Shown in pieces: positions 6,615 to 35,042 of a stretch of 39,675 bases of DNA; within the stretch, counting starts at the first letter, position 1; the number at the start of each line of letters is the position of its first letter. Source of the stretch: an uncultured Limosilactobacillus sp. (GTDB lineage: Bacteria; Bacillota; Bacilli; Lactobacillales; Lactobacillaceae); assembly GCA_944327195.1 (NCBI GenBank), contig CALVGV010000022.1:1-39675 (forward strand), written 5' to 3'. The position numbers and the translations under genes were made by a program. The notes below the pieces were generated by a model, which saw nothing but the letters and a program-made list of their open reading frames with translations, was not told the origin of the DNA and made no database searches.

Positions 6615-6633
6615 GTTTATTAAAGGAGAACAA

Positions 6634-14383: not shown

Positions 14384-14716
14384 CGAAGCGGGGCCAGGGG
14401 GGCCTCCGGGAAGCAACTGCCGGGACCCTAACGGTAGCGGCCTTCCCACCGGGGATCCTCCCATCGTGCAGGAATACCGGAGTGGCAGTGGTACCACCTG
14501 GCCGGAGCGGGGGAGACCCGGGAGCTCAGGGGTGAAATTGTTCTTGGCGATTCATCGCCTAGAACAAGGCCGAGCTTGAAGACCCGGGACGGGGCTTCAA
14601 GTCGTGCCCACCCCGTTCCAGTCTCCCGGCAAGCTCCCCCGCGGAGGCCACACACCAATAATCAGAACGACGTAAGGAGAAACCGGGAAAGCCCGGTCAA
14701 GTTGAGAGGAGATAAC
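14384..14716. other. Gap between pbp and mraY holding structured repeat D
   Basis: No gene is supported in this 333-base gap. The first 100 bases (14384-14486) are GC-rich with short inverted pieces. A GGTGGTACCAC-like palindrome stands at about 14487-14496, then the repeat core (14500-14649), then the mraY SD GAGAGGAGAT. A reading frame open through the repeat into mraY (from 14576) is not a credible N-terminus, because MraY normally begins near 14717. Confidence 0.7.
14500..14649 (-). repeat. Structured intergenic repeat, copy D
   Basis: In copy D the outer stem pairs CGGGGGAG with CTCCCCCG and CCGGGAG with CTCCCGG. The next stem pairs GGGGTG with CACCCC. Inside are two hairpins: TTCTTGGCGAT/ATCGCCTAGAA and GCTTGAAG/CTTCAAG. 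The end motif GCGGAGGCC matches the other copies. It has the same orientation as copies B and C (31.55 and 34.89 kb) and is opposite to A and E. It lies inside the division cluster, presumably in the pbp-mraY mRNA. Confidence 0.8.
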
Positions 14717-15685
14717 ATGAATACCAATTACCTGTTGTGGGGATTCGGCGGCCTGGTGCTGTCCTTCCTGATTACCTTTTTGCTGATGCCCAAGCTGATC
14801 GCTTACTTCCGGGCAAAGAAGGAAGGGCAACAAATCCGTGAGGTCGGCCCCACCTGGCACCAAAAGAAGGCCGGCACGCCGACGATGGGGGGGATCCTCT
14901 TCATCATCAGCACGGTGATCGGGGCGCTAGTGGCCGCCCTGGCAACCGGCCTGCTGACGCCGACGATGGGGGCCCTGCTCTTCACCCTGGTCATCTTTGG
15001 CCTGATCGGGATGTGGGACGATAGCATCAAGATCTTCCACCACCAAAACGAGGGTTTCAAGCCCTGGCAAAAGTTCCTCGCCCAGGTGGTTGCGGCGATG
15101 ATCTTCACCGCCATCTACCAGCACGAGGGCTTCCAGATGGGCTTTGGCGCAATGGACCTCGGCTGGGCCTACGGGCTGTTCATCATCTTCTGGATGGTTG
15201 GCTTCTCCAACGCGGTTAACCTGACCGACGGCCTTGACGGCCTGGTCGACGGGCTGGCAACGGTCTCCTTTGCCGCCTACCTGGTGATTGCCGTCGTGCA
15301 GGGGCAGGGCGAGGTTGCCCTCTTCTGCCTGGCAATGATCGGCGGGCTGCTGGGCTTCTTCCGCTACAACCACAAGCCGGCCAAGATCTTCATGGGTGAC
15401 ATGGGTTCGCTGGCCCTCGGCGGGAGCCTGGCGGCGGTGGCCCTGCTTCTTCACCACGAGTGGTCCCTGCTTTTGATCGGAATCATCTACGTGATCGAAA
15501 CGGCCAGCGTGATGCTCCAGGTGGCCTCCTTTAAGACCACCGGGAAGCGGATCTTCAAGATGACCCCGATCCACCACTCCTTTGAAATGAGTGGCTGGAG
15601 CGAGTGGAAGATCGACATCAACTTCTGGCTCTTCCAACTGGTGGTCAGCGCGATCACCGTGGCGGCAATTCTTTACATGGCATAG
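14717..15685 (+). CDS. mraY: Phospho-N-acetylmuramoyl-pentapeptide-transferase MraY
   Basis: MraY makes lipid I by moving phospho-MurNAc-pentapeptide from UDP to undecaprenyl phosphate at the cytoplasmic membrane. The 322-aa protein has about ten membrane helices and the signatures [16 protein letters not shown] (active-site aspartates near residue 98), [15 protein letters not shown] and the late [11 protein letters not shown] loop. The ATG at 14717 has GAGAGGAGAT three bases upstream and gives the normal length. The repeat in its leader may influence its translation or mRNA stability (inference). Confidence 0.95.
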
Positions 15686-15704
15686 ATAAGGTGGCAATTA
15701 AACA

Positions 15705-17075
15705 ATGAAAGACATTCAGACCTACCAAGGGAAGAAAGTACTGGTAATCGGCTTTGGGATTAGCGGTATCAACGCTGCCAAGCTGATGGTGAAGCTCGGC
15801 GCGACGGTAACCGCCACCGACCAAAAGCAACAAGAAGAAGCGGTGATCGCCGACCTGCAAGCGGCCGGGATCACCACCATCACCGGGGAGAACCCGCTCT
15901 CCTTGGCCGACGAAGGCTTCGACTACGTGATCAAGAACCCGGGGATACCCTACGACGCCCCGCTAGTGGCGGCCTTCGTCAAGAAGGGGACGCCGATCAT
16001 CACCGACGTTGAGGTGGCCAGCCAGATCCTCGCCGGCCACCTGGTCAGCGTCACCGGGAGCAACGGCAAGACGACCACCACTTCCCTGATCCAGGCCATG
16101 CTGGCCAAGGGGCTTTCCGGGCGGGTGGAATACGCCGGCAACATCGGTGTTTCCTTCGCCAAGGTTGCCCAGGAGCTGGGCGAAGCCGACACGGTCGTGA
16201 CCGAGCTGTCGAGCTTTCAACTCTTGGGGGCCCCGACGATCCACCCCCACGTGGCGGTGATCACCAACATCTTTGAAAACCACCTCGACTACCACAAGAC
16301 CCGCGAAAACTACATCAACGCCAAGCTCAACATCACCCGCAACCAAACTAAGGATGACTACCTGGTGATCAACTGGGACCGCGACGAGTGGCAGCAGCTG
16401 GCCAACCGGACGGAAGCCACGGTGATTCCCTTTTCGCGGCTGAACAAGTCCCACGCCGGGGCCTACGTGGAAAACGATACTTTCTACTGGCAGGGTGAGG
16501 AGATCATGCCGGTGGCCAAGCTCCGCCTGATCGGGCCGCAAAACATTGAAAACGCCCTGGCCGCCATCGCCGCCGCCAAGCTGAGTGGGGTTGCCAACGA
16601 GGTGATCGTCAGCGTGCTGACGACCTTCGCCGGCGTCCGCCACCGCCTCCAGTTCGTGATGGACTACCAGGACCGCAGCTTCTACAACGACTCCAAGTCG
16701 ACCGACATCGAGGCAACCGAGGTGGCCCTCCAGGGCTTCAAGCGGCCTGTGATCCTGCTGGCCGGCGGCCTCGACCGCGGCTACACCTTCGAGCGGCTGG
16801 TGCCCTACTTCAAGAAGCACGTCAAGGAACTGATCGTCTTCGGTCAGTGCAAGGACAAGATGAAGGATGCCGGCCTGGCCGCCGGGGTACCGGTCAGCGA
16901 GGCCGAGGACGCCATCGCCGCCGTGCCGCTGGCCTGGGAAAAGAGTACCCCGGGGGATGTGATCCTGCTGTCGCCGGCCAACGCCAGCTGGGACCAGTTC
17001 CCGAGCTTTGAGGTCCGCGGTGACAAGTTCATCCAGGCAGTGGAAGAATTGACCGGTCAAAAGGAGGAAGACTAA
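15705..17075 (+). CDS. murD: UDP-N-acetylmuramoyl-L-alanine--D-glutamate ligase MurD
   Basis: MurD adds D-glutamate to UDP-MurNAc-L-Ala in the cytoplasm, the second amino-acid step of peptidoglycan precursor synthesis. The N-terminal Rossmann part reads [17 protein letters not shown]. The ATP-binding loop is TGSNGKTTT. Central blocks ENHLDYHKT and GVRHRLQFV, and [11 protein letters not shown] in the third domain, are all present. Length 456 aa is complete. The stop overlaps the start of murG by one base (TAATG), so translation is coupled. Confidence 0.96.
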
Positions 17076-18178
17076 TGCGCCTAATGGTTTCTGGCGGGGG
17101 CACGGGGGGCCACATCTACCCGGCCCTGGCCCTGATTGAACGCCTCAAGCAAGTTGACCCGGACACCGAGGTCCTCTACGTCGGCACCACCCGCGGGCTG
17201 GAAAACCGGATTGTGCCGGCGGCCGGCCTCAAGCTGGTGACCTTAAAGACCCAGGGCTTCAAGCGGTCCTTATCACTCGAAAACTTCAAGACGGTCTACC
17301 TCTTCTTGAAGTCGGTTCACCAGGCCAAGAAGCTGGTCAGGGACTTCAAGCCCGACGTCGTCCTGGGGACCGGCGGTTACGTAAGCGGGGCGGTTCTCTA
17401 CGCCGCCGCCAAGCAAGGCGTGCCGACGGTGATTCACGAGCAAAACAGCGTCGTCGGGGTGACCAACAAGTTTCTCAGCCGCTACGTCGACGAGATCGCG
17501 ATCGCCTTCAGCGCCGCCAAGGACCAGTTCCCGAAGGGGAAGGTGACCCTGGTCGGCAACCCGCGGGCCCAGCAGGTGGCCAGCCAACGCGAATCGACCT
17601 TCAAGTGGTCGCAAATCGGCCTCAAGGACGACCTGCCGACTTTGATGATCTTCGGCGGTAGCCAGGGGGCCCCCAAGATCAACCAGAGCGTGGTCGAGGC
17701 CATCCCGACCTTCAACCAGCGCCCTTATCAAGTGATCTTTGCCACCGGGCAGAAGCGGTACGACAAGATCAAGCAGGCCCTGGCGGGGGTTGAGATCAAC
17801 GACAACGTCAAGGTGGTTCCCTACATCGAAGACATGCCGGCCAAGTTGCCGAAGGTGGCAGTCCTCGTTTCGCGCGCCGGCGCCACCACGATCGCCGAAA
17901 TCACCGCGATTGGGGTGCCGACGGTCATGATCCCGAGCCCCTACGTCACCGCCAACCACCAGGTCAAAAACGCCCAGGCCCTGGTCGACAAGGGGGCGGC
18001 GCGGATGATTCTGGAAGACGACCTCAACGGCGAGAGCCTGCTCAAGGCGGTCGACGACCTGATGACCGACGATGGCCTGCGCCAGCAGATGGCCGACCAT
18101 TCCAAGCAGATCGGTCACCCGACCGCGGCCGACGACCTGATTGACGTCTTGAAGAAGGCAATCGCCGACCACAAGTAG
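17075..18178 (+). CDS. murG: UDP-N-acetylglucosamine transferase MurG (lipid II synthase)
   Basis: MurG adds GlcNAc to lipid I to form lipid II on the inner face of the membrane. The GT-B enzyme shows the first glycine-rich loop [12 protein letters not shown], the second G-loop region [16 protein letters not shown], then [10 protein letters not shown] and the donor-site segment [12 protein letters not shown] in the C-terminal domain. Length 367 aa is normal. It is coupled to murD and followed after 40 bases by divIB. Confidence 0.96.
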
Positions 18179-18218
18179 CCACTAGCACCAAAGAAAACCC
18201 AGGGAAAGGAGGGACGCA

Positions 18219-19079
18219 ATGGCCCAGGGGTATCAAAACAACGACCAGCACCGCCGCTACAACGAACGGCTCGCCAAGCTCGAGGAGCGCAGCGTGCTCG
18301 CCTTGAACAGCCGCAAGAAGAAGCGACGGCCGCGGCTCAAGAAGAAGATTCCCAAGGTCAAGCACCTCCAGCGGCGGACCAACCTCCGCCGGGTGCTCTC
18401 GATCGTCCTTCCCTTTGGGCTGATCATGGCCTTTGCCATCTACCTGATCTCGCCGCTGGCCCGGATCACCACGGTCACGGTCAGCGGCAACCGCCACCTG
18501 ACCAGTCAGCAGGTCGAGGCCGCCACCAAGGTCAAGCCCGGTCGGCTGATCTGGGCAACCCTGCCGATGAGCAAGCAGCGCCTGGCGCGGATTCAGGGCC
18601 GCAACGCCCAGCTCAAGAGCGTTCAGATCAGCCTGACTGGCCTCCAGTCGGTCAAGATCACCGTCAAGGAATACGGGATCATCGGCCTGATCAAGACCAA
18701 CGGCAAGCAAAAGCTCCTGCTCAGCAACGGCCAGGTGCAGCCGGTCAGCGGCAACACGCTTGATCAGTACATCACCTACGGCGGCTTTTCCGGCCACCAG
18801 GCGATGCTCAAGCAAACCGCCGGAAACATCGCCAAGCTGTCCCCGGCGGTCCGCAACGGGATTTCCGAGGTCACCTATTCGCCAACCACCCTCGATTCGG
18901 AGCGGCTCAAGCTTTTGATGAACGACGGCAACACCGTCTACGTCAAGGTCAGCAAGCTCGCCAGCCGGATGAGCTACTACCCGTCAATCGTGGCCAACAC
19001 CAGCGGCAACCGGATTATCAACCTCGAATTTGGGGCTTACTCGTACAAGTACAGCGCCAAGGACGAACAAAATAATTAA
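18219..19079 (+). CDS. divIB: Cell division protein DivIB (FtsQ)
   Basis: DivIB works with FtsL and DivIC in the divisome at the septum. The 286-aa protein has a basic cytoplasmic region of about 65 residues (SRKKKRRPRLKKK), one membrane helix (VLPFGLIMAFAIYLI), then an extracellular POTRA domain starting ITTVTVSGNRHLTSQQVE and the DivIB/FtsQ beta domain. AAAGGAGGG precedes the ATG. There is little C-terminal tail beyond the beta domain. A possible weak terminator and a new promoter follow before ftsA. Confidence 0.93.
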   Translation: MAQGYQNNDQHRRYNERLAKLEERSVLALNSRKKKRRPRLKKKIPKVKHLQRRTNLRRVLSIVLPFGLIMAFAIYLISPLARITTVTVSGNRHLTSQQVEAATKVKPGRLIWATLPMSKQRLARIQGRNAQLKSVQISLTGLQSVKITVKEYGIIGLIKTNGKQKLLLSNGQVQPVSGNTLDQYITYGGFSGHQAMLKQTAGNIAKLSPAVRNGISEVTYSPTTLDSERLKLLMNDGNTVYVKVSKLASRMSYYPSIVANTSGNRIINLEFGAYSYKYSAKDEQNN

Positions 19080-19156
19080 GGGCCGGGTGACAATTGCTTT
19101 ACCGACCGGTTAAATCGCGGCCGGCGCCCCTTTTTGGCGGGAAAATGTGGTAAAAT
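19076..19156 (+). promoter_or_regulatory. Possible terminator after divIB and extended -10 promoter of ftsA-ftsZ
   Basis: AAGG-GCCGG after the divIB stop can pair with CCGGC and CCTT before a T5 run (up to about 19135), a weak terminator with a 3-base bulge. Just downstream, TGGTAAAAT (TAAAAT at 19151-19156) is an extended -10 without a good -35. The 140-base gap to ftsA is AT-rich at its end. A separate promoter for ftsA-ftsZ within the cluster is common in Firmicutes. Confidence 0.45.
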
Positions 19157-19221
19157 CGTTGTATGAATACTATCTAATAAAAAAACTAATTTTATATTGC
19201 ATTTAGGAGGGTTCCGCGCGA

Positions 19222-20640
19222 ATGAATAACTCACAAATCTATGTTGGTTTAGATATCGGAACCGCCTCGATTAAGGTCCTTGTCTGTGAAAACGTCAAGG
19301 GCAAGCTTGAAGTAGTGGGGGTTGGTTCCCAACCATCCGGTGGGCTGAGCCACGGGGCGATTGTGGATATCGACAAGACTGCGCACGCGATCAAGGCGGC
19401 GGTCGAGCAGGCCCGGGCGAAGTCGGGGGTTGAAATCCGCGAGGTCGTGGTCGGCCTTCCAGCCAACTACCTAAAGTTAAACGAAGTCCACGGGATGATT
19501 ACCGTTTCCGACCAGGGGCAACCCCGCGAAATCATCAACCAGGACGTGATCGACGTGGCCCACTCGACCTTGAGTCAGGCCCTGCCGCCGGAGCGCGAGG
19601 TGATCGACCTGGTCCCGCGCGACTTCGCCGTTGACCAGTTCCGCGGGATCCAGGATCCGCGCGGGATGGCCGGGGTGCGCCTCGAGTTGTGGGCAACCCT
19701 GTACTCTGGTTCCAAGACGATCGTTCACAACACCAAGAAGGCAATCGAGGCGGCCGGGCTGAAGATGGCCGACCTGGTTGTCAGCCCGATTGCCACCGGC
19801 TTCAACTTGCTGTCGGACGGCGAGCAGGACTTCGGGACCCTCCTGATTGACCTGGGGGCCGGGCAAACCACCACCAGCATCATCCACGATCACCAGCTCA
19901 AGTTTGCCTACGTCGACCCCGAGGGGAGCAAGTTTGTGACCAAGGACATCTCGACCGTCCTCAACACCTCGCAAAAGAACGCCGAGCGCCTCAAGCTGGA
20001 CCACGGTTACGCCCAGGCGGCGGCCGTTGAAGACGACGTTCAGCTGGCCGTCGACGTGGTCGGCAAGAGCCAGCCGGTCAACTACACCGAACAGTACTTG
20101 GCCGAGATCATCGAGGCCCGGATGCGGCAAATCTTCCGCCGCGCCAAGGACCGCCTCGATGCAATCAGCGCCCCGGACCTGCCGGGGGGCGTCGTCCTCT
20201 TAGGGGGCGGGGCGGCCCTGCCGGGGATCAAGGAACTGGCGAGCGAATACTTCTCCGGCACCATCCGGGTGGTTGTGCCGGAGCAAATGGGGATTCGCCA
20301 TCCGGGCTACGCCACCGTCCTTTCGCTGACGATGTACGAAAACAGCCTGAGTGACGTGACCCGATTGATCAAGCAAACCCTCCACGAGGGCGGCCTGATC
20401 ACCAGTCCCCACCAGCAGGCGGCCAACGTCAACCAACCATTGACCGCGCCTGCTCCGCGCCCGCAAAAGCGGCCGGCGGCCCCGAAGCGGCCCCGGATGG
20501 CCCGGCCAACCCCGCGCCCGCAAGCCGCGCGGCCGGTGAACGCCGCCAGCGAACAGCCAAAACCAACGCCAACTCCCCGGGAGAAACCGGCGAAGAAGAG
20601 CGGCGGCTTTAAGGGCTTCTTCAGTAATTTCTTTGATTAA
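19222..20640 (+). CDS. ftsA: Cell division protein FtsA
   Basis: FtsA is an actin-like ATPase that tethers FtsZ filaments to the membrane. The start has the phosphate-1 motif [25 protein letters not shown] is the phosphate-2 motif and [12 protein letters not shown] the adenosine motif. The 1C domain lies between. After about residue 395 a Pro/Ala/Lys-rich linker leads to a short C-terminal amphipathic helix ending [11 protein letters not shown], the expected membrane-targeting sequence. AGGAGGG lies ahead of the ATG. ftsZ follows 23 bases later. Confidence 0.96.
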
Positions 20641-20663
20641 CTAACGACGGAGGAACACTTTTT

Positions 20664-21950
20664 ATGGATAACGTAACCAGCACTGACCAGATGGACTTGA
20701 AGGGCGCCAGCATCAAGGTAATTGGGGTCGGCGGTGGCGGTGGGAACGCCGTCAACCAAATGATCAATGAAAAGGTGAAGGGTGTCGACTTCATCGTGGC
20801 CAATACCGACTTGCAGGCTCTCGATGGCTCCGCGGCGCAAACCAAGATCCAACTGGGGCCGAAGCTGACCCGCGGGCTCGGCGCCGGCTCCAACCCGGAA
20901 GTGGGGAGCAAGGCCGCCCAGGAAAGTGAATCCCAGATTTCCAAGGTCCTGGAAGGGGCCGACATGGTCTTCGTTACCGCCGGAATGGGCGGCGGGACCG
21001 GGACCGGGGCCGCTCCGGTGATCGCCAAGATCGCCAAGGACTCCGGCGCCCTGACCGTCGGCGTGGTTACCCGGCCCTTCTCCTTTGAGGGGAGCCGGCG
21101 GGCCAAGTTGGCCGAAGAGGGCTTGGAACGGCTGAAGAAGAGCGTTGACACCCTGATCGTGGTGGCCAACAATCGCCTCTTGGAAATGATCGACAAGAAG
21201 ACGCCGATGATGGAGGCCTTCAAGGAAGCCGACGACGTCCTTCGCCAAGGGGTTGAGGGGATCTCCGACTTGATCACCAACCCGGGGTACATCAACCTCG
21301 ACTTCGCCGACATCCGCCACACGATGACCAACCAGGGGGCCGCCCTGATGGGGATCGGTTCCTCGACCGGCGAAAACCGGGCCAGCGAGGCCACCAAGAA
21401 GGCGATCTCCTCGCCGCTGCTTGAAGTTTCGATCGACGGGGCCGAACACGTCCTGGTCAACGTTACCGGGGGCAAGAACCTGTCAATGTTTGAAGCCCAA
21501 GAGGCCTCGAGCGTCATCCGCCAGGCGGCCAACACCAACGTTGACATAACCTTCGGGATGGCAATGGACGACAACTTGGGCGACGAAGTGCGGGTAACCG
21601 TGATCGCCACCGGGATCGACAAGCAAAAGCAAGAACAACGCCAGGCGGCCCAGGCAAGCAGCCAGGAACCGGTAACCCCGGCGGAACCGGCCCCAGAGGC
21701 AAGCGAAAGCAGTGCTTCTGAAGGCACCGGTGCCCCGGCGGCCGACCCGACGCCCGCTCCGGCCAAGGAAGACCCCTTCAGTGGCTGGGACGAGGACCTC
21801 GGCGCTTCCTTGAACAGTAGCCGGCGGGAACCAAGTTTTAACAATGTTGAAAAGCCGGACTTCAGCGTGCAAGACGACAGCTTGACCAAGGTTGACGACG
21901 GCGGCGAAGACCTGTCGACGCCGGCCTTCTTCAAGAACCGTCGCAAGTAG
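20664..21950 (+). CDS. ftsZ: Cell division protein FtsZ
   Basis: FtsZ is the tubulin-like GTPase that forms the division ring. The nucleotide-binding residues are visible: [13 protein letters not shown] at the start and the tubulin signature [12 protein letters not shown]. The T7 loop [11 protein letters not shown] is also present. After the globular part (about residue 320) comes an acidic, Ala/Pro/Glu-rich linker. The C-terminal peptide is [18 protein letters not shown], the site for FtsA and SepF binding. The 428-aa length is normal. Confidence 0.97.
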
Positions 21951-21982
21951 GCTGAGTCGGGTGGCAAAAAGGGGGAATTGGA

Positions 21983-22414
21983 ATGGCCGGAAAGTTTTTT
22001 AGCAATTTCTTTGGGATCAGCGACGAACCAACGGCCCGGGAGTATTACGCGCCCGAGAAGCCGGCGACCCCGGTCCCGGCCGCACCGCAACCCGTGGTGA
22101 AGCAAAACAACAAGGTGGTTGCCATGCAAAAGAGCCGGCAGACCCGGGTCAACCCGGGCAAGATTGCCCTCTTTGAGCCGCGGATTTACAGTGACGTTCG
22201 CGGGATTGCCAAGCAGATCCTGGCGGGGGAAGCGGTGATTGTCAACTTCACCCAACAGGACCCGAAGACGGCCGTCAAGACGATCGACTTTTTGAACGGG
22301 GTTGTCTTTGCGATTGACGGGCAAATCAAGCGAATTGGCGAGCAGATTTTCCTGTGCACGCCGAAGAACTATGAGGTGAGTGGGCAGAGCGTGGCCGACC
22401 TCCACCGTGACTAG
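21983..22414 (+). CDS. sepF: Cell division protein SepF
   Basis: SepF binds the FtsZ C-terminus and the membrane and shapes FtsZ bundles. The N-terminal amphipathic helix (FFSNFFGI near residues 5-12) is the membrane anchor. A flexible Pro-rich part follows, then the conserved domain ALFEPRIYSDVRGIAKQIL with GEAVIVNFTQ and DFLNGVVFAIDGQI. Length 143 aa is typical. In many relatives the PLP-binding gene ylmE stands between ftsZ and sepF; it is missing here. The stop codon touches the first base of structured repeat E. Confidence 0.94.
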   Translation: MAGKFFSNFFGISDEPTAREYYAPEKPATPVPAAPQPVVKQNNKVVAMQKSRQTRVNPGKIALFEPRIYSDVRGIAKQILAGEAVIVNFTQQDPKTAVKTIDFLNGVVFAIDGQIKRIGEQIFLCTPKNYEVSGQSVADLHRD

Positions 22415-22691
22415 CTCCGCTCCGCGAAAAGCAGGGCTGGAACGCTGCGTGGCCTCCGGGGAGTAGCTTCCGGGAGACTGGAACGGGGTGGGCACAACTT
22501 TGAGCCTCCAAGGAGTCTCAAAGTTTGGCCTTGTTCTAGGCGATAAATCGCCAAGAACAATTTCACCCCTGAGCTCCCGGGTCTACTCCCCTCCGGCGGT
22601 GGTACCACTGCTACTTTCCGTCGGTGGAGGACGGTTAGCTCCAGGTTGCCGGGAATTTCACCCCTGAGCCCTGTTTTCGCTCCGCTCCGGG
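22414..22691 (+). repeat. Structured intergenic repeat, copy E (one element nested in another)
   Basis: The inner element (about 22451-22596) pairs GGGGAGTAG (22458-22466) with CTACTCCCC (22583-22591), and GGGGTG with CACCCC. It encloses hairpins AACTTTGAG/CTCAAAGTT (22496-22525) and TTGTTCT-GGCGAT/ATCGCC-AGAACAA (22531-22560). An outer pair of arms, CGAAAAGCAGGGCT at the left and AGCCCTGTTTTCG at the right (about 22668-22680), carries the end motifs CTCCGCTCCGCGAA and TTCGCTCCGCTCCGG of copies A-C. So one element appears to sit within another. The orientation is as in copy A. Confidence 0.75.
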
Positions 22692-22809
22692 TGGTACCAC
22701 TGCCGCCGTTGGTTTCTCTTCGGTTAACGGCTACAACGGTTACATGTGTTAACCATTATTGATCTACGGACCACCCTCAGCACTCTCACCACCCCAAAGG
22801 AGGAATTTG
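22692..22809. other. Leader of yggT downstream of repeat E
   Basis: GGTGGTACCAC follows the repeat here (about 22690-22700) and again inside it (about 22599-22608). Further on, GGTTAAC, GGTTAC and GTTAACC recur within 35 bases and can form a hairpin. No promoter is clear. The AAAGGAGG at 22796-22803 is the yggT SD. Confidence 0.5.
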
Positions 22810-23079: not shown

Positions 23080-23084
23080 AAATC

Positions 23085-23867: not shown

Positions 23868-23882
23868 CTGGAGGAAATTAAG

Positions 23883-24587: not shown

Positions 24588-24596
24588 GGGAAAAAC

Positions 24597-24822: not shown

Positions 24823-24862
24823 CATTTTCGTCATGGGTTTTGCAACATAAGGAGGAAGAGCG

Positions 24863-27655: not shown

Positions 27656-27698
27656 TTTTTCCGGCGGTTTTTGCCGGAATGGTGTAAAATGGAAAAGC

Positions 27699-27733
27699 AA
27701 AAAGGCTGAGCATTATCCTCAGCCTTTTCTTTT
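27699..27733 (+). terminator. Terminator after ileS
   Basis: AAAAAGGCTGAG (27699-27710) pairs with CTCAGCCTTTT (27718-27728), and TCTTTT follows. A smaller hairpin CCGGC/GCCGG (27661-27676) lies closer to the stop codon but has no T-run. Confidence 0.9.
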
Positions 27734-27739
27734 ATCCTG

Positions 27740-27757
27740 GTGGGGGATGGCCCCCAC
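27740..27757 (+). promoter_or_regulatory. Stable hairpin just upstream of the cold-shock-domain gene
   Basis: GTGGGGG (27740-27746) and CCCCCAC (27751-27757) pair perfectly around the loop ATGG. No T-run follows, so it is not a terminator. It lies about 10 bases before the SD AAAAGGGGG of the next gene and would be in its leader if transcription starts upstream. Confidence 0.45.
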
Positions 27758-27780
27758 GCTAATTAAAAGGGGGAATTCAC

Positions 27781-27990
27781 GTGCTGGGCACGGTAAAATC
27801 GTTTGATCGCGCCAAGGGCTGGGGCTTCATCACGGTTCCGGATGAGGGCGACGTCTTTGTGCACACCCAGGCCATCGCGGCCCCGAGCCGCCCCTTGATG
27901 GCCCCGGGGGCGACGGTGGAATTGGTAATGGTGATGGGGGCCCGCGGTTGGCAGGCCGCCCACGTTAAGGTAAAGGCGGTGCAAGAATGA
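27781..27990 (+). CDS. Cold-shock-domain protein, divergent CspA-like
   Basis: The 69-aa product is a single OB-fold cold-shock domain. It begins LGTVKSFDRAKGWGFITV, containing the RNP1-like KGWGFI, and has RNP2-like DVFVHTQAI. It is more divergent than housekeeping CspA: GFGFI is replaced by GWGFI and the second half is unusual. The GTG start has AAAGGGGG seven bases upstream. The stop overlaps the start of the Nudix gene (ATGATG). Nucleic-acid binding is expected; cold induction is not shown. It heads an operon of metabolic genes, which is an odd setting for a cold-shock protein. Confidence 0.82.
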   Translation: MLGTVKSFDRAKGWGFITVPDEGDVFVHTQAIAAPSRPLMAPGATVELVMVMGARGWQAAHVKVKAVQE

Positions 27991-28544
27991 TGGAATTTGA
28001 AGAAAAGGTTCAAGCCACTAAGCCGGTCTTTTCCGGCCACCTGATCGACGTCGAGGTCCAAACGGTTGTCACCCCCAAGGGGCAGGAAGCCACCCGCGAG
28101 GTCGTTCACCACGCCCCGGCGGTTGCCCTCTTAATGGTTGACGATGACGACCGGGCGATCCTGATGAAGCAGTGGCGGGCGCCGATCAAGAAGGTGACCC
28201 TCGAGGTGCCGGCCGGCAAGGTCGACCCGCGCGACGGCGGCGACCCGCAGAAGGCGGCGATCCGTGAGATGAACGAGGAAACCCGCCTCCAGGCCGCCCA
28301 CCTAAAGAAAATCAACGCCGCCTACACCTCGGTCGGCTTTTGCGACGAGTACATGACCACCTACTACGCCACCGGCCTGACCCCGGTAACGACCGCCCTG
28401 CCGCAGGACGCCGACGAGGAACTGGCGATGGTCAAGGTCACCAAGGATGAGGCCAAGGCGATGATCGAGAGTGGTGAGATCGAGGACCAAAAGACGGTCA
28501 GCGCCCTCTACTACTGGTTTGCCCAGGACGTGACCCATGGATAA
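27987..28544 (+). CDS. ADP-ribose pyrophosphatase (NudF-type Nudix hydrolase)
   Basis: The family hydrolyses ADP-ribose to AMP and ribose 5-phosphate. The 185-aa protein has the NudF layout with an N-terminal dimerising beta sheet. The Nudix box is PAGKVDPRDGGDPQKAAIRE followed by MNEET: the core REMNEET is intact, while the usual early Glu is replaced by Asp and there is a short insertion. AYTSVGFCDEYMTTYYA matches the loop after the box. Two adjacent ATG codons (27987, 27990) overlap the upstream stop. Substrate is inferred. Confidence 0.87.
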   Translation: MMEFEEKVQATKPVFSGHLIDVEVQTVVTPKGQEATREVVHHAPAVALLMVDDDDRAILMKQWRAPIKKVTLEVPAGKVDPRDGGDPQKAAIREMNEETRLQAAHLKKINAAYTSVGFCDEYMTTYYATGLTPVTTALPQDADEELAMVKVTKDEAKAMIESGEIEDQKTVSALYYWFAQDVTHG

Positions 28545-28794
28545 GGAGCCACTGACCCGGCGGGAGTACCAGGCCCGCCAGCGCCACGAACAGGAGCAAC
28601 CGGCATCGGCCGCCCCAACCAGTGATGCCCCAACGGCGGGCGAGCGGCCGACCCGCGAGGAGAGCCTCCGCCTTACCAAGGCCAAGCTGGAGGCCGAGCG
28701 GACCGCCAACTTAAAGCACCGCTTGAACCTGGTCATCCTTGGCCTGGTCGTGGCGATCGTGCTCGTGTACCTGGTACTGTTCTTTGTTGGATAG
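28537..28794 (+). CDS. Small C-terminally anchored membrane protein of unknown function
   Basis: I do not recognise a named family. The 85-aa product is hydrophilic and rich in Arg, Glu, Gln, Pro and Ala for about 62 residues (with TRREYQARQRHEQEQ and EESLRLTKAKLEAERTAN). One membrane helix follows at the very end (LVILGLVVAIVLVYLVLFFVG). The likely topology is cytoplasmic N-terminus and tail anchor. It overlaps the Nudix gene by eight bases and is followed 13 bases later by mtnN, so it is clearly part of this operon. Confidence 0.78.
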   Translation: MDKEPLTRREYQARQRHEQEQPASAAPTSDAPTAGERPTREESLRLTKAKLEAERTANLKHRLNLVILGLVVAIVLVYLVLFFVG

Positions 28795-28807
28795 GAGGAA
28801 AATTGAA

Positions 28808-29515
28808 ATGAAGTTCGGAATTATTTGCGCCATGCCCGAGGAGATCAAGGAGCTGATTGCCAAGCTGGCCGATGAAAAGGTGACCGCGTGCGGCGGTAAG
28901 GACTACCACGCCGGCACCCTGAGCGGCCAGGAGGTCGTCTTGGTTGAGTCGGGGATCGGCAAGGTCGAGGCGGCGCTGACCGCCGAGCATTTGATCGTCG
29001 ACTTCGGCGCCGACGTGGTGATCAACTCCGGTTCGGCCGGTGGGATCGGGGCCGGACTGAAGGTTGGCGACGTGGTGGTTTCGACCGCCACCGCCTACCA
29101 CGATGCCGACGTGACCGCCTTTGGCTACGACTACGGTCAGCTGCCGGGGCAACCGGCTCGCTTCGCCGCCTCGGAGAAGTGGGGCCAGGCGATTGCCGAG
29201 GCCGGCCAGCAAACCGGCCTGACGATCAAGCGCGGCCTGATCGTCAGCGGTGACCAGTTCGTCGCCAGCCAGGAGCAAATCGCCAAGATCAAGGAGCACT
29301 TCCCGGACGTCCTCTCCGCCGAAATGGAGGGGGCCGCCGTCGGCCAGGTGACCACCGACCACCAGGTACCCTACGTGGTCGTGCGGGCGATGTCCGACAC
29401 CGGCGACGAGGAGGCCAGCCAGTCCTTTGACGACTTCATCATCGACGCCGGCCGTCGCTCCGCCGCCATGCTCCTGCAACTGTTTGCCGACTTGAAGGAG
29501 GGGAAGGACGCCTAA
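28808..29515 (+). CDS. mtnN: 5'-methylthioadenosine/S-adenosylhomocysteine nucleosidase
   Basis: The enzyme cleaves adenine from methylthioadenosine and S-adenosylhomocysteine, recycling products of SAM use; it also supplies the AI-2 pathway. MKFGIICAMPEEIKEL carries the catalytic Glu12. The phosphorylase-fold glycine segment reads NSGSAGGIG. The substrate-binding block is SAEMEGAAVGQV. The catalytic Asp lies in MSDTGDEEA. GGAGG stands ahead of the ATG at 28808; the longer open frame is inside the preceding gene. The 235-aa length is normal. The stop overlaps the iscS start by one base. Confidence 0.95.
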   Translation: MKFGIICAMPEEIKELIAKLADEKVTACGGKDYHAGTLSGQEVVLVESGIGKVEAALTAEHLIVDFGADVVINSGSAGGIGAGLKVGDVVVSTATAYHDADVTAFGYDYGQLPGQPARFAASEKWGQAIAEAGQQTGLTIKRGLIVSGDQFVASQEQIAKIKEHFPDVLSAEMEGAAVGQVTTDHQVPYVVVRAMSDTGDEEASQSFDDFIIDAGRRSAAMLLQLFADLKEGKDA

Positions 29516-30669
29516 TGGCTGAGATTTACCTTGATAACGCCGCCACCACGCCGATGATCCAGCCGGTGATTGACACTTTGGTGGAAAACCTCCAGCAAAA
29601 CTGGGGGAACGCCTCGACCGGCTACGGCTACGGCCGGGCCGCCAAGCGGGTGCTGGAAGATTCCCGCCACCTGATTGCCCAGAGCATCAAGGCCAAGGAC
29701 GACGAGATCGTCTTCACCAGCGGCGGGACCGAGAGCGACAACACGGCGATCATCCAGACCGCCTTTGCCCGCCAGAAGCTGGGCAAGCACATCATCACCA
29801 CCGCAATCGAGCACGAGGCGGTCCTCAAGCCGATGCACTTTCTCGAGCAGCACGGCTTTACTGTGACCTACCTGCCGGTTGACGAGGAGGGCCAGATCAG
29901 CTTGGCCGACTTCGACGCCGCCCTCGACGACGAGACGATCCTGGTCTCGATCATGATGGGCAACAACGAGGTCGGCTCCCACCTGCCGATCAAGGAGATT
30001 GGCGAGCGGCTGGTTGACCACCAGGCCTGGTTCCACACCGACGCCGTCCAGGCCTTCGGGCTTTTGCCAATCGACGTCGATGACCTCCACGTCGACCTGC
30101 TGTCGACCTCGGCCCACAAGCTGAACGGCCCCAAGCAGCTCGGCTTCCTCTACCGCCGCCGCGGGGTGAACTTCGAGAGCTACCTCAAGGGGGGCGACCA
30201 GGAAACCAAGCGGCGCGCCGGGACCGAGAACGTGCCGGCGATTGCCGCCTTCGCCAAGGCGGTCGCCATCGACGGGGAAGCGGAGAAGGCCGAGCGCCAG
30301 AAGCGCTACTACGGCTTCAAGCAGCAGATCGTTGCCGGCCTGAAGGCGGCCGGGATCGACTTCGCCGTCAACGGCAGCCTCGACCCGGACAACCTCAACC
30401 ACGTCCTCAACCTGTGGATCAAGGGGGTCTCGACCTACGTCTTGCAGACCAACCTCGATTTGGCCGGGATCGCCGTTTCCGGCGGCTCGGCCTGCACGGC
30501 GGGGAGCCTAACCCCGTCCCACGTGCTGACGGCGATGTACGGTGAGGATTCGCCGCGGATTACCGAGTCGATCCGGGTAAGCTTCGGCGCCCTCAACACG
30601 GCAGCAGAAATCGACCAGTTTGTGGCAACCCTGGTCAAGATCGTCAAGCGGCTGAAGGAGGAAGACTAG
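29515..30669 (+). CDS. Cysteine desulfurase (IscS/NifS family)
   Basis: This PLP enzyme removes sulfur from cysteine and passes it on as persulfide. IYLDNAATTPM is the N-terminal signature. The PLP lysine is Lys202 in STSAHKLNGPK, and the catalytic cysteine is Cys327 in GGSACTAGSL. Length 384 aa fits. In lactobacilli this gene, the DUF1831 gene and mnmA are usually adjacent, and the enzyme is thought to feed MnmA in making 2-thiouridine in tRNA. Here a pair of structured repeats separates them from mnmA. Confidence 0.94.
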   Translation: MAEIYLDNAATTPMIQPVIDTLVENLQQNWGNASTGYGYGRAAKRVLEDSRHLIAQSIKAKDDEIVFTSGGTESDNTAIIQTAFARQKLGKHIITTAIEHEAVLKPMHFLEQHGFTVTYLPVDEEGQISLADFDAALDDETILVSIMMGNNEVGSHLPIKEIGERLVDHQAWFHTDAVQAFGLLPIDVDDLHVDLLSTSAHKLNGPKQLGFLYRRRGVNFESYLKGGDQETKRRAGTENVPAIAAFAKAVAIDGEAEKAERQKRYYGFKQQIVAGLKAAGIDFAVNGSLDPDNLNHVLNLWIKGVSTYVLQTNLDLAGIAVSGGSACTAGSLTPSHVLTAMYGEDSPRITESIRVSFGALNTAAEIDQFVATLVKIVKRLKEED

Positions 30670-31017
30670 ATGGAATTTCAAACGACCGGCCAGGTGCAGG
30701 GCGACAAGGACCGCTACCAACTGAGCCCAAACATCAAGCCCTACCCGCTGATGGACCTCGGCTTTGAGAAGACCAAGCGTGGCAACTACAAGTATGCCGG
30801 TTCGCTCGACCGGACCAACCCCTTCAAGCCGGCGGCCCGGCTGAAGATCGTGGTGGCCGGCGACTTGTCCGGCTTCAAGATCGAGACGGTCAACGCCAGC
30901 GGTGACCGCAAGCTCAACATTTTCACCAGCCCCCGCAAGGACGAGTTCGTCCTCCAGTACCACTTCATCCTCGACGAGATGGTGAAGCGCGAGATCTTCG
31001 TGAAGGTTGAAGGCTAA
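30670..31017 (+). CDS. DUF1831 family protein
   Basis: The 115-aa product begins MEFQTTGQVQGDKDRYQLSP and matches the DUF1831 proteins of lactobacilli, which are small alpha/beta proteins of unknown function. It starts on the base after the desulfurase stop, with AAGGAGG inside that gene. Conserved neighbourhood with the desulfurase and mnmA suggests a helper in sulfur transfer; this is inference. A terminator follows within 10 bases. Confidence 0.85.
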   Translation: MEFQTTGQVQGDKDRYQLSPNIKPYPLMDLGFEKTKRGNYKYAGSLDRTNPFKPAARLKIVVAGDLSGFKIETVNASGDRKLNIFTSPRKDEFVLQYHFILDEMVKREIFVKVEG

Positions 31018-31025
31018 GTAAGCAG

Positions 31026-31054
31026 AAGCAACGTCAAGGCGGCGTTGCTTTTTC
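31026..31054 (+). terminator. Terminator of the csp-nudF-mtnN-desulfurase operon
   Basis: AAGCAACG and CGTTGCTT form an 8-bp stem with loop TCAAGGCGG, followed by TTTT. It lies just after the DUF1831 stop. Confidence 0.8.
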
Positions 31055-31065
31055 GTTTGGGATGG

Positions 31066-31218
31066 GGCCTCCGCTCCGCGAAGTGGGCGGGACCGTGACG
31101 ATGGCGGGCCAAACTTTGAGCCCCTCCGGGTCTCAAAGTTTGGCCTTTCACTAGGCGGGAAACCCGCCAAGTGAAATTTCGCCATCTTGGCCCGCCCATT
31201 CGCTCCGCTCCGGCCCGG
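31066..31218 (+). repeat. Structured intergenic repeat, copy A
   Basis: The left end is GGCCTCCGCTCCGCGAA and the right end TTCGCTCCGCTCCGGCCC. The outer stem pairs GGGCGG (31085-31090) with CCGCCC (31192-31197), and the middle stem GATGGCG (31100-31106) with CGCCATC (31180-31186). Hairpin 1 pairs CCAAACTTTGAG (31109-31120) with CTCAAAGTTTGG (31132-31143). Hairpin 2 pairs TTTCACT and GGCGGG with CCCGCC and AGTGAAA (31146-31176). Overall this is a three-way junction. It is inverted relative to copy B. Confidence 0.85.
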
Positions 31219-31549
31219 CGTCTTTGAGCATCGCTAGCGACTGCTTGTGGCTTGGCACCAACCACTGGCGGAGCCATCACCAGTTTTCTTTACCAGAACG
31301 ATTAGTCTTTCCCCCTATTCTGGTAGCCACCCCACCTTCCCACCTAATTGCAGTGCACCGCTTGGCTACTAGGGGAAAACCAAGGTCCCTTACCACCATC
31401 GATCTCCCAATGTAATCAGTAATCTCATCGTACTCAATTGGGTAGCAGTCATTGTTACTAACCTTAGCTTCTGCCTTAAAGATGCCGTTCTGCGTCAGTG
31501 CAATCATCAGCTGCCTCTTCCGGTCACTATCTAGCCACGCCGATTGCTG
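31219..31549. other. Lower-GC segment enclosed by inverted repeats A and B
   Basis: This 331-base segment is visibly less GC-rich (about half G+C) than the genes around it. It contains only one candidate reading frame, on the minus strand, annotated separately. I see no transposase, no direct repeats at the edges and no clear promoter. Confidence 0.55.
31277..31507 (-). pseudogene. Orphan reading frame, possibly a gene remnant
   Basis: From the ATG the frame gives 76 aa: MIALTQNGIFKAEAKVSNND, then PIEYDEITDYIGRSMVVRDL. It stays open upstream of the ATG into the end of repeat B (…AWLDSDRKRQL), so it may be the tail of a longer protein whose start was lost. Its composition looks like protein and its codons are less GC-biased than those of its neighbours. 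The last 20 residues are low in similarity to any fold I know. No SD stands clearly ahead of the ATG. I cannot assign a family; an expressed small protein is possible but unproven. Confidence 0.35.
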
Positions 31550-31703
31550 CCGGGCCGGAGCGGAGCGAAAACGGGGGCCAAGATGGTGAAATTATTCTTG
31601 GCGATTTATCGCCTAGAACAAGGCCAAGCTTGAAGACCCGGGACGGGGCTTCAAGTTGTGCCCACCATCGTCACGGTCCCCCGCTTTTCGCGGAGCGGAG
31701 GCC
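31550..31703 (-). repeat. Structured intergenic repeat, copy B
   Basis: The outer stem pairs CGAAAACGGGGG with CCCCCGCTTTTCG and the middle stem GATGG with CCATC. Hairpin 2 is TTCTTGGCGAT/ATCGCCTAGAA and hairpin 1 is GCTTGAAG/CTTCAAG. End motifs match those of copy A in reverse complement. Hairpin 2 is the type found in copies D and E, and hairpin 1 the type in D. Copies A and B thus form a 640-bp inverted-repeat unit. Confidence 0.85.
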
Positions 31704-31722
31704 CTCCCACAGCCGTTTTTCC

Positions 31723-31752
31723 TTGTCTAGCCAAGCGCTTCTTTGCTACAAT
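31723..31752 (+). promoter_or_regulatory. Promoter of mnmA
   Basis: TTGTCT (31723-31728) and TACAAT (31747-31752) are separated by 18 bases, and TGC directly before the -10 extends it. It lies just outside repeat B and about 70 bases before the mnmA start. Confidence 0.7.
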
Positions 31753-31785
31753 GGTCGGTACTGGACATGCGACCTTCAATCGTAA

Positions 31786-32958
<1,173 letters not shown>

Positions 32959-33045
32959 AAAGGGTGAAAAGCCGAATTTTACCGGGAACATTAAGTTTTT
33001 TTCCGAATTTTCCCCGAAAGCTAGCCCGGCCCGGTGAATCTTTGC

Positions 33046-33051
33046 TATCAT
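33046..33051 (+). promoter_or_regulatory. Extended -10 promoter of the histidine phosphatase gene
   Basis: TGCTATCAT gives TATCAT with a TGn extension about 43 bases ahead of the start codon. No good -35 is seen. The 120-base gap after mnmA is otherwise AT-rich and contains CCGAATTTT twice. Confidence 0.45.
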
Positions 33052-33093
33052 AGACCTAGAAATTTTGGTAAAAGGATTTTTTAGGTGGACGTG

Positions 33094-33750
33094 ATGACGA
33101 AGATTTACTTTATCCGCCACGGCAAGACGGAGTGGAACAAGGAGTCGCGCTACCAGGGGGCCCACGGGGATTCCCCGCTCCTGGAAAGCAGCCTCCACGA
33201 AATTGATTTGCTGGCCAAGTCGCTGGCGGGGGTCGAATTTGCCCACGCCTACGTTTCCCCGCTCAAGCGGGCGCAAACGACGGCCAAGCGGCTCTTGGCG
33301 GACCTGGCAAGCCCGATCCCGCTAACGGTCGACGAGCGCTTGCGCGAGTTTGACCTCGGGAAGATGGAGGGGATGGAGTTTGCCGTGGTGGCCGAGAAGT
33401 GGCCCGAGATTCAGGAAAACTTCCACCGTCATCCCGACCGCTACGATGCGGACCTGGTTGGTGGCGAGAGTTTTCCGGCGGTGATTGCCCGCTTCAAGGA
33501 AGCGATCAACGAGTACGCCGCCGCCTACCCGGCCGCCAACCTGCTGGTCGTTTCCCACGGGGCGGCGCTCAACGCCGGGATTAACGGCCTCCTCGGCCTC
33601 CCCTTGGCCCATTTAAAGGACAAGGGCGGCCTCAGCAACACGTCAACCACAATCCTGGAAACGACCAACGGGCACGATTATTCGCTGGTGCAGTGGAATG
33701 AAACCGGCTACCTGCACAAGACCCACGTTGATCCAACGGATACCATTTAG
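33094..33750 (+). CDS. Histidine phosphatase family protein (phosphoglycerate mutase-like)
   Basis: The 218-aa product begins MTKIYFIRHGKTEWN, with the RHG motif carrying the phospho-accepting histidine near residue 9. It has YVSPLKRAQTTAKRLL, the acid LREFDLGKMEGM and the second histidine in VVSHGAALNAGI. AGGTGG lies five bases before the ATG at 33094; a GTG at 33085 overlaps the SD. Members are called GpmB-like but most are general phosphatases, so substrate is unknown. The TPR gene follows 13 bases later. Confidence 0.88.
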   Translation: MTKIYFIRHGKTEWNKESRYQGAHGDSPLLESSLHEIDLLAKSLAGVEFAHAYVSPLKRAQTTAKRLLADLASPIPLTVDERLREFDLGKMEGMEFAVVAEKWPEIQENFHRHPDRYDADLVGGESFPAVIARFKEAINEYAAAYPAANLLVVSHGAALNAGINGLLGLPLAHLKDKGGLSNTSTTILETTNGHDYSLVQWNETGYLHKTHVDPTDTI

Positions 33751-33763
33751 AGAGGTGGAACCA

Positions 33764-34441
33764 ATGACTGAAAAGGCAAAGAAGCAGACGGAAAAGCTCG
33801 TTCACCGCTTGGTGGAGGCGATCGACGCGGAGCCGGACAAGTTCAACAACTACTACGACCTTGGCTCCCTGCTGACGCGGCTGAAGGACTACCAGCAGGC
33901 CGAAGAACTCTTCATGAAGGCGCTGGGGATCTTTGAACCAAAGGGCGACCAGAAGGCGATCAACCTGCTCAAGTACGGGCTGGGGAACCTCTACTACTCG
34001 GTTGACCAGGTGGAAAAGGCGATCACCTACTACAACCAGATCGACGACCCGAAGATCAAGGCCGATGCCTACCTGATGCTGGCCCAGAGCTACATGAAGA
34101 AGAAGCAGTACAAGCAGGCGGTGGCCTACGGGCTGACGGCGCTGGAACTGCGGCCGAGTGATCCGGAAATTGCCCAGGTGCTGGGCGACTCCTGCCTGGC
34201 CCTCGGTGAATTTAAGCAAGCCAAGCAGTACTACGACCAGATCTTAAAGCGCCACCCGGGGCGGGCGGACACCCAGTTCAACCGCGGCCTGGTGGCAATG
34301 GCTTTGGGTGAACCGTACGAAAGCTTCTTGACCCAGGCCAAGCAGCTCGACCTCGACTACTACGAAAAGAGCGAGGCCAAGATTGCCGACATCGAGCACA
34401 CCCTGCAGCAGTTGGGCGGCAATGAAAAGGAAGACAAGTAA
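33764..34441 (+). CDS. Tetratricopeptide repeat protein
   Basis: The 225-aa protein is made almost entirely of TPR-type helical pairs, such as YYDLGSLLTRLKDYQQAEEL, AYLMLAQSYMKKKQYKQAVA and EIAQVLGDSCLALGEFKQAK. Such proteins are protein-interaction scaffolds; no enzymatic motif is seen. GAGAGGTGG stands five bases before the ATG at 33764. In many lactobacilli a TPR gene precedes recD2 directly. Here a small OB-fold gene lies between. The partner is unknown. Confidence 0.88.
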   Translation: MTEKAKKQTEKLVHRLVEAIDAEPDKFNNYYDLGSLLTRLKDYQQAEELFMKALGIFEPKGDQKAINLLKYGLGNLYYSVDQVEKAITYYNQIDDPKIKADAYLMLAQSYMKKKQYKQAVAYGLTALELRPSDPEIAQVLGDSCLALGEFKQAKQYYDQILKRHPGRADTQFNRGLVAMALGEPYESFLTQAKQLDLDYYEKSEAKIADIEHTLQQLGGNEKEDK

Positions 34442-34685
34442 ACCCGAGAGGTCATTGACGGGGGTTGTGCAAGGCGTAACCTACGTTGATGGCTTCTTTC
34501 GTATTCTGGAGGTGGCCATCGTTACCACCGGTTTCGACTGGGAAGGGACGACGATCACGGTCACCGGTAACCTGGGCCCGCTGGTGGTGGGGGACTACTG
34601 CCGCTTCACCGGCCGCCTGCAGGAAAGCAAGCGCTACGGGATCCAATTCCAGGCAAGCCGGGCGGAACGACTGCCACTGAGCTAG
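34422..34685 (+). CDS. Small free-standing OB-fold protein, paralogue of the RecD2 N-terminal domain
   Basis: From about codon 13 the 87-aa product (GVVQGVTYVDGFFRILEVAI and on) aligns without gaps to residues about 24-90 of the RecD2 encoded 0.4 kb downstream. About 30 of 66 positions are identical by eye, including GxFRIL, ITVxGxLG, VGD and KRYGxQF. So it is an isolated copy of that OB domain without helicase motifs. The start is uncertain: ATG at 34422 overlaps the TPR gene by 20 bases, while TTG at 34455 has GAGAGG only three bases upstream. It could be a single-strand-binding accessory, or a remnant of a partial duplication of the recD2 5' end. Confidence 0.65.
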   Translation: MKRKTSKPERSLTGVVQGVTYVDGFFRILEVAIVTTGFDWEGTTITVTGNLGPLVVGDYCRFTGRLQESKRYGIQFQASRAERLPLS

Positions 34686-34889
34686 AGTGCGCTTTGGGGA
34701 TGAAAGGCGGAAGTGGCGACGGAATGCACTTAGGAGCGACCAGTGATTTCACGCAGTCGGTCCGGTCAAACCAGCATCCGTCCATGAGCCGGGACCGCTA
34801 ATGATGTTGGAGCTGGAATTGAAGGGGGGCCGTAAAATTGGCTTCCAGTTGGAGATTGAAAGTAGGGGAGAACGAACGCCAATCGTTGC
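34686..34889. other. Gene-free segment before repeat C
   Basis: This 204-base segment is less GC-rich than its neighbours. It has no supported gene, though short frames are open on both strands. It lies between the small OB gene and repeat C, so it may have arrived with the repeat. Confidence 0.45.
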
Positions 34890-35042
34890 CCGGGCCGGAG
34901 CGGAGCGAAAATGCGGGCCAAGATGGCGAAATTTCACTTGGCGGGTTTCCCGCCTAGTGAAAGGCCGAGTTCTGAGACCCAGAGGGGCTCAGAATCGTGC
35001 CCGCCATCGTCACGGACCGCAATTTTCGCGGAGCGGAGGTCC
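34890..35042 (-). repeat. Structured intergenic repeat, copy C
   Basis: The outer stem pairs CGAAAATGCGG with CCGCAATTTTCG and the middle stem GATGGCG with CGCCATC. Hairpin 2 is TTTCACTTGGCGGG/CCCGCCTAGTGAAA as in copy A. Hairpin 1 is GTTCTGAG/CTCAGAA, a third sequence version that keeps pairing. Its ends match copies A and B. It ends 35 bases before the recD2 start, so it is probably in the recD2 leader. Confidence 0.85.

Follow-up and report, generated by a model that had tools for sequence, protein, structure and literature searches.

The window, a stretch of 39,675 nucleotides from an uncultured Limosilactobacillus, carries a family of structured repeats between its genes. The original prediction described five copies, and all five were located where it had placed them, with the listed stems present in the sequence. 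Copy 1 (14498-14650, forward strand) is of type B, which is marked by a CTCAG/GTTCCAG internal loop, and has a penicillin-binding-protein gene on one side and mraY on the other. Copy 2, also of type B (22450-22600, reverse strand), is flanked by sepF and the YggT gene and is nested in a sixth, older copy that it interrupts. The 3′ part of the older copy lies at 22411-22449 and its 5′ part, together with a joining stretch containing AGTGGTACCACC, at 22601-22703, both on the reverse strand; a single merged match covers 22411-22703, and CCGGAGCGGAGCGAA is found at 22676-22690. The end motifs that had been assigned to the 22.45 kb copy belong to the older copy split around it.

The remaining copies are of type A. 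Copies 3 and 4 are the two halves of an inverted pair, flanked by a DUF1831 gene and a tRNA thiouridylase gene: the left half (31065-31217, reverse strand; model match and fold) is separated by a spacer of 333 bases (31218-31550) from the right half (31551-31704, forward strand; model match). Copy 5 (34891-35042, forward strand) lies between a TPR-protein gene and recD2. According to its sequence and fold, hairpin 1 occupies 34932-34962 on the forward strand and includes the conserved T·T mismatch, while hairpin 2 occupies 34963-35001 on the same strand, with a bulged G and an A·G mismatch. Some copies are adjoined by AGTGGTACCACC.

The constant part of the repeat, a strand some 105-115 bases long, adopts a fold with a three-way junction. 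Every window copy folds better than all of its 200 shuffled versions, with z-scores of -4.9 to -8.7 for RNA folding and of -6.8 to -9.3 for DNA folding (200 shuffles likewise). Among 48 full copies, 98.2% of the cells are paired, compared with 85.8% after shuffling and 35.8-50.8% when the partner strand is slid. The claim that the stems vary yet stay paired holds in this set, in which 31 of 46 pairs have changed on both sides, and all 36 core pairs show such two-sided changes somewhere. A tree-aware covariation test, our own R-scape-like procedure using 20 simulated alignments, gave 19 significant column pairs out of 4950, and all 19 are pairs of the structure, so that covariation exceeds the tree-aware background, as had been anticipated.

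Two details of the predicted architecture had to be revised. The end motifs, taken as separate tags, form in minimum-energy folds an outer helix whose pairing is broken by GGA/GGA internal loops. Hairpin 1 had been described with an exact partner strand; instead it contains a T·T mismatch that is fixed in 85 of 86 cores. In hairpin 2 an A·G mismatch is fixed in 83 of 86 cores, and most copies also have a bulged base. The fixed unpaired parts of the core further include one internal loop. A three-armed fold with fixed mismatches is kept precisely while its sequence changes freely. These observations support the earlier reading that the fold is selected, either as RNA or as DNA hairpins used by a mobilising enzyme, although palindrome correction rather than selection could account for part of the near-perfect pairing.

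The repeat is widely dispersed. A covariance-model search of the genome that contains the window, as had been proposed, returned 86 matches, and a 161-base query taken from one copy found 46 BLAST places in it. The folded core is present in 114 of 397 Lactobacillaceae genomes, representing 14 of 40 genera, and 14 chosen carriers hold from 2 to at least 150 copies per genome. In an order-level sample of 295 genomes all 11 positives were Lactobacillaceae. Four core queries against 72,556 plasmid records gave 0, 0, 16 and 0 matches, all 16 in Lactiplantibacillus. One exact pattern found no match among viral contigs, one query none among phages, and a megablast search with 6 kb of the window none in the viral, phage and plasmid reservoirs. 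As far as searched, the element is limited to Lactobacillaceae.

Does the repeat belong to a described family? The statement that no named family fits is supported by an Rfam scan of the window and eight loci, in which no family reached its gathering score on any copy; Rfam membership was rejected. In a permissive scan of six further loci only a neighbouring T-box exceeded its gathering score, and two micro-RNA families overlapped cores at scores far below theirs. The GCTCAG and GTTC motifs resemble tRNA arms, but the Rfam scans gave no tRNA match on the cores. A terminator role was set aside by inspection only, as the cores have no T-run after them and copies are placed within the division cluster, between its genes. 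Among titles and abstract openings, and in open-licence papers, we did not find a lactobacilli repeat of this kind described; the account of Lactobacillus johnsonii repeats, as far as available, places one family, Lac-1, within coding sequence (PMC2267715). The copies are members of a large family in lactobacilli, made up of small mobile DNA elements and apparently undescribed.

The copies have a modular layout. Close copies are inverted with their 5′ ends facing each other in 26 of 26 cases in genome G173 and in 6 of 6 in G238 (counted over 33 of its 48 places); in the genome of the window 19 of 29 close pairs are divergent and none is convergent. The pair is an inverted heterodimer: its two halves are on average 69-72% alike, and each half matches a core from some other pair at 91-98%. 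Replication-strand bias was not seen among singles in G173 (21 of 51, taking base 1 as the presumed origin). Tandem single copies were opposite in orientation to genes in 13 cases and the same in 7, a difference that we did not find convincing, given a crude gene caller that miscalled the ftsZ region.

Evidence for mobility comes from a related genus (g5), where the element ends are CTAAAGGTTGAAAG and 18 of 30 elements bounded by terminal inverted repeats have exact direct repeats of 7-9 bp, compared with 0.46% of mismatched flanks. The suggestion that the repeat is MITE-like is upheld by these terminal inverted repeats and target duplications. Such features do not fit an IS200-type mechanism. 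In the genome of the window, where the ends are uncertain, no clear duplications were found: repeats of 7 bases or more flank 0 of 16 inverted pairs (1.7% expected by chance) and 10 of 49 singles (about 10% by chance). G047, a related genome, has much shorter counterparts of two G026 stretches that hold pairs. In a separate comparison of these two genomes, a second G026 stretch was rearranged, with breaks near the copies, and was unusable as an empty site. Elements in G238 that have no core keep intact target repeats, and the core may therefore be dispensable for movement, unless its loss followed the insertion. Across the genera compared the element ends vary, while the folded internal core is common to 14 genera.

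An enzyme was sought among the neighbours. When 1717 open frames, each 80 codons or longer, were clustered, after removal of 9 duplicate loci and with the loci chosen for the transposase search set apart, no cluster present in at least 4 loci was a transposase or another candidate enzyme; the widest clusters were translations of the repeat itself and the others were ordinary genes. Searches for an autonomous parent, with the end pattern in G238 and with the end sequence in 12 genomes from the genus of G238, were negative, and terminal-repeat pairs in the loci covered were only 134-604 bp apart. Some ends lie at contig breaks, and draft assemblies are interrupted at these repeats, so that a parent may have escaped assembly. 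A Y1_Tnp hit occurs once in the genome of the window and in 31 of 50 genomes of the genus, but three of the five carriers in the genus have none (G025, G026 and G047; G025 is 92% and G026 85% complete). A RAYT/IS200 partner was rejected, since Y1_Tnp hits do not track the presence of the element. Of the suggested REP-like character, the inverted doublet layout stands and a REP transposase does not.

We consider it close to an even call that the copies are a non-autonomous mobile element of the MITE class, whose core is read as a folded DNA strand by an enzyme supplied in trans. The basic unit would be two different, equally folded modules in inverted orientation, with their 5′ ends facing and a spacer between them, and single copies appear to be halves or deletion products. 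A putative enzyme given in trans would mobilise the element. We infer that the folded single strand, as DNA rather than RNA, is read by this enzyme, or by a host factor that the enzyme uses, when the strand is extruded or exposed at replication. Reading by way of the fixed mismatches and the internal loop would allow the stems to change only in pairs. More tentatively, the core could be a distinct kind of module for folded-strand recognition, defined by the three-way junction, the fixed T·T and A·G mismatches and the CTCAG/GTTCCAG loop, which a putative Lactobacillaceae enzyme would read and which element families with differing ends would carry, typically as an inverted pair of distinct modules; we regard this as possible but doubtful.

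Could the fold work as RNA instead? Copies lie between co-directional genes, for example in the division cluster, and on this reading those in operons and untranslated regions would be transcribed with their neighbours; the junction would then be bound or cleaved, with RNase III as one example, and would tune mRNA stability, with mobility only spreading the module. RNAs that are bound by proteins typically have fixed mismatches and loops. Transcripts of Correia elements are cut by RNase III, as outlined in PMC10969869. Cross-genus cores contain 54 G·T against 16 A·C mismatches, in a set picked by a model favouring G·U, and the outer arms show 9 G·U against 4 A·C. However, in three sets taken within genomes or within the genus the two kinds are equal (G·T to A·C 16:14, 33:32 and 32:31), which is expected if the RNA strand of the copies is not selected, and wobbles make up about 2% of cells. 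Moreover, each pair places one module in sense and the other in antisense, and the orientation to genes (13 opposite, 7 same) is without clear bias. Overall, an RNA function seems unlikely, though it deserves serious consideration.

It is improbable that the stems are kept perfect by mutation rather than selection, through template switching at replication, in which one arm serves as the template for its partner. The stems are almost wholly Watson-Crick with few intermediates, G·T equals A·C within genomes, and the fold-back and deletion derivatives that occur reveal unstable palindromes, all of which would suit such a process; yet correction should erase the T·T and A·G mismatches and the internal loop, which are conserved more strongly than any other part. 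A family of ordinary REPINs, with a RAYT/IS200-type REP-associated tyrosine transposase as the mover, is very improbable despite the single Y1_Tnp hit in the genome of the window, given the carriers G025, G026 and G047 without such a hit, a core of more than 100 bases with a three-way junction, and, in one genus, terminal inverted repeats with target duplications, which are at odds with the IS200-type mechanism.

Returning to the reading as a mobile element with a folded DNA core, comparison with known systems reveals partial likenesses. Correia-type MITEs are likewise short, non-coding and dispersed, with terminal inverted repeats and target duplications as in g5, and transcripts of the lactobacilli repeat would be structured too, but its core is shared across 14 genera while the ends vary; we know of no such core described for Correia elements. 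The BOX elements of pneumococcus, a related member of the order, are also modular structured repeats, and AGTGGTACCACC stands beside some lactobacilli copies; no sequence or Rfam link between the two was found, and to our knowledge conserved mismatches and inverted heterodimers have not been described for BOX. T-box-like motifs are noted for BOX elements in a review, as far as its available part goes (PMC10969869). REPINs, as outlined in PMC3116915, are inverted doublets, mostly extragenic and present in many copies, with compensatory hairpin changes and no gene of their own. The lactobacilli repeat matches them in doublet layout, extragenic sites, high copy number and compensatory changes, and is geneless here too. 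It differs in its module of more than 100 bases with a three-way junction, in two halves of differing sequence, in its terminal inverted repeats with target duplication (one genus) and in three of five carriers having no Y1_Tnp hit. Integron attC sites keep their structure while the sequence varies, and their folded single strand is recognised via unpaired bases, according to the part of PMC2727003 available. The lactobacilli core is similarly a variable-sequence folded strand with conserved mismatched bases (85/86 and 83/86), but it has a three-way junction, inverted pairs and TIR-type transposition (g5), and neither an integron integrase nor a cassette array was observed.

The repeat occurs about 100 or more times in several lactobacilli, and here it sits within the cell-division cluster. 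The rule that stems change while mismatches stay fixed provides a handle for finding the protein that would read the fold, and opens to testing the idea that large folded DNA modules spread in bacteria through their structure and not their sequence. If the core is indeed a folded-strand module, attC sites and REP hairpins would be joined by a new class of mobile DNA that is recognised by its structure.

All five copies claimed in the original prediction are present in the window; read along the conserved strand, they lie at 14498-14650 (+), 22450-22600 (-), 31065-31217 (-), 31551-31704 (+) and 34891-35042 (+). They are all intergenic, and two lie inside a cell-division cluster. According to Pfam, the 14.50 kb copy is flanked by a penicillin-binding-protein gene and mraY, the 22.45 kb copy by sepF and a YggT gene, and the 34.89 kb copy by a TPR-protein gene and recD2; the 31.07 and 31.55 kb copies form an inverted pair, with 5' ends facing, bordered by genes for a DUF1831 protein and a tRNA thiouridylase. 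The 22.45 kb copy interrupts an older one, whose remnants lie within 22411-22449 and 22601-22703. The end motif quoted in the original prediction at 22.45 kb is part of this older, split copy. In RNA folds the end motifs make up the outer helix, which is broken by GGA/GGA internal loops. All five copies fold better than every one of 200 shuffles, both as RNA (z -4.9 to -8.7) and as DNA (z -6.8 to -9.3). At the gathering score, the window gives a single Rfam match, the 23S-methyl RNA motif (RF01065) at 6514-6615. Adjoining type B copies, those with a CTCAG/GTTCCAG loop, is AGTGGTACCACC (window 22640-22700; loci L005, L009, L010, L012, L017 and L023), which we take to resemble a T-box motif. Possible T-box motifs in BOX elements are mentioned in a review (PMC10969869).

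BLAST with a 161-base query hits 46 places in the window's own genome. As the original prediction had proposed, this genome was also searched by covariance model; the full-copy model R1, built from 48 full copies, gave 86 matches. Where fewer than 700 bases separate adjacent copies, the arrangement is divergent in 19 cases, tandem in 7 and 3, and never convergent. A second repeat of about 115 bases (GCGGTTCGCCATTCGCC ... ACTAAGTAACATTC) breaks hairpin 2 of some copies (L025:1755-1880 and L034:1375-1495, both on the minus strand); its 25-base inner motif occurs at 5 distinct loci among those examined from this genome, or 7 counting duplicates, including L018, L077 and L078.

Under strict filters, R1 matched 5 of 50 genomes of the genus: the window's own, G011 (8), G025 (20), G026 (47) and G047 (2). 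From 56 sequences of these five we built the core model R2, which, again with strict filters and at most nine candidates scored per genome, found the core in 114 of 397 Lactobacillaceae genomes and 14 of 40 genera. In an order-wide sample, 11 of 295 genomes were positive, all within this family. In fourteen chosen carriers, with up to 150 candidates scored in each, copy number ranges from 2 to at least 150 (G365 141, G315 134, G173 103, G069 68, G238 48); G196 and G201 hit the ceiling of 150 and may hold more. An exact pattern search of a named genome collection matched 10 stretches, from Levilactobacillus paucivorans, fuyuanensis, humaensis, namurensis (2) and spicheri (2), a Candidatus Levilactobacillus, a Lactobacillus metagenome assembly and Companilactobacillus suantsaicola, the last identical in sequence to a G196 stretch. 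A diverged core is present in 16 Lactiplantibacillus plasmids (e.g. L147:5000-5112 and L148:4998-5110); among three inspected, it lies near a small site-specific integrase gene in two and between IS30 transposase genes in one. We found no published description of the repeat in the open-licence literature, which does not prove its absence from print.

The stems were predicted to change on both sides together. Across 48 own-genome copies, 31 of 46 pairs show such changes and 98.2% of cells are paired, compared with 85.8% after shuffling; shifting the partner by 1-3 columns lowers pairing to 35.8-50.8%. In a family-wide alignment of 86 cores, 84 of them distinct, the corresponding values are 36 of 36 pairs and 97.6% versus 71.8%. 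We then applied an R-scape-like test in which a tree was built and each column was simulated independently along it, 20 times. Covariation exceeded the phylogenetic background in 19 of 4950 column pairs, all 19 of them structure pairs; of the remaining structure pairs, 16 did not reach significance and one was closer than the test allows. Fitting the alignment to the model biases it towards the structure, yet no pair outside the structure was significant.

Close copies are arranged as divergent pairs in 26 of 26 cases in G173, a genome in two contigs (with 51 single copies), and in 6 of 6 among 33 of the 48 places in G238. Mean identity of the two cores within a pair is 69% in G173 (7 pairs), 71% in G238 (6), 69% in G201 (4) and 72% in the own genome (12 pairs, range 64-87), whereas the best match in another pair averages 98%, 98%, 91% and 95%, respectively. 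Left and right modules are thus propagated as distinct partners, the unit being an inverted pair of two dissimilar modules. An inverted pair occupies the same intergenic place in G026 and G047 (L097:2088-2427, L085:4714-5075; flanks 82-90% identical), with modules of different subtypes.

In G238, of the related genus g5, the pair sits inside an element of 509-512 bp (six measured) with terminal inverted repeat CTAAAGGTTGAAAG, which occurs 76 times at up to one mismatch versus once for the reversed control. Shorter ones, 159-387 bp long, resemble derivatives produced by deletion or fold-back. Exact direct repeats of 7-9 bp, with a shift of one base permitted, bound 18 of 30 elements with terminal inverted repeats in G238 and its genus, compared with 0.46% of mismatched flanks. 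In the own genome, repeats of at least 7 bases flank none of 16 inverted pairs and 10 of 49 singles, roughly double the 10% expected by chance; at 8 bases or more, the count is 4 of 49 (chance 3.7%). Target duplications are therefore shown for genus g5 only. Two pair-bearing stretches of G026 are much shorter in the related G047, at 42 bases against 1052 and 387 against 990; the alignment of the first shows no precise footprint. Synteny between these genomes is broken at or near repeat copies (L090 versus G047:C1:545000-559500), as if copies had served as recombination points.

No transposase recurs beside the copies among the copy-bearing loci, and no transposase-sized element with the G238 ends was seen, several ends lying at contig breaks. 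Y1_Tnp (IS200/RAYT) matches occur in 31 of the 50 genus genomes and are absent from the carriers G025, G026 and G047.

Could the fold function as RNA? Selection on one RNA strand in the copies would lead G.U to be tolerated more than A.C. The two are equal in three sets (16:14, 33:32 and 32:31), but stand at 54:16 in the cross-genus cores, a set chosen for top scores under a model that itself favors G.U; split by score, the set gives 41:13 for the lower half alone and 12:3 for the upper. The outer arms, which lie outside the core model and are usable in 56 of 86 cores, give 9:4, and wobbles make up about 2% of cells. We read these counts as leaning towards DNA within genomes and favoring neither overall; the chief rival reading is an RNA function. 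Palindrome correction may help to make the stems perfect, yet it does not explain the kept mismatches: T opposite T in hairpin 1 (85 of 86 cores) and A opposite G in hairpin 2 (83 of 86). One internal loop, TCA facing GTTCCA, is likewise kept at 90-98% in the 86 cores; in the own genome it belongs to type B copies, and type A copies have a different one.

We prefer, as an unproven mechanism, that the fold would be read as DNA during mobilisation. There is good support for the repeat being a dispersed, structured, non-autonomous mobile element of Lactobacillaceae.
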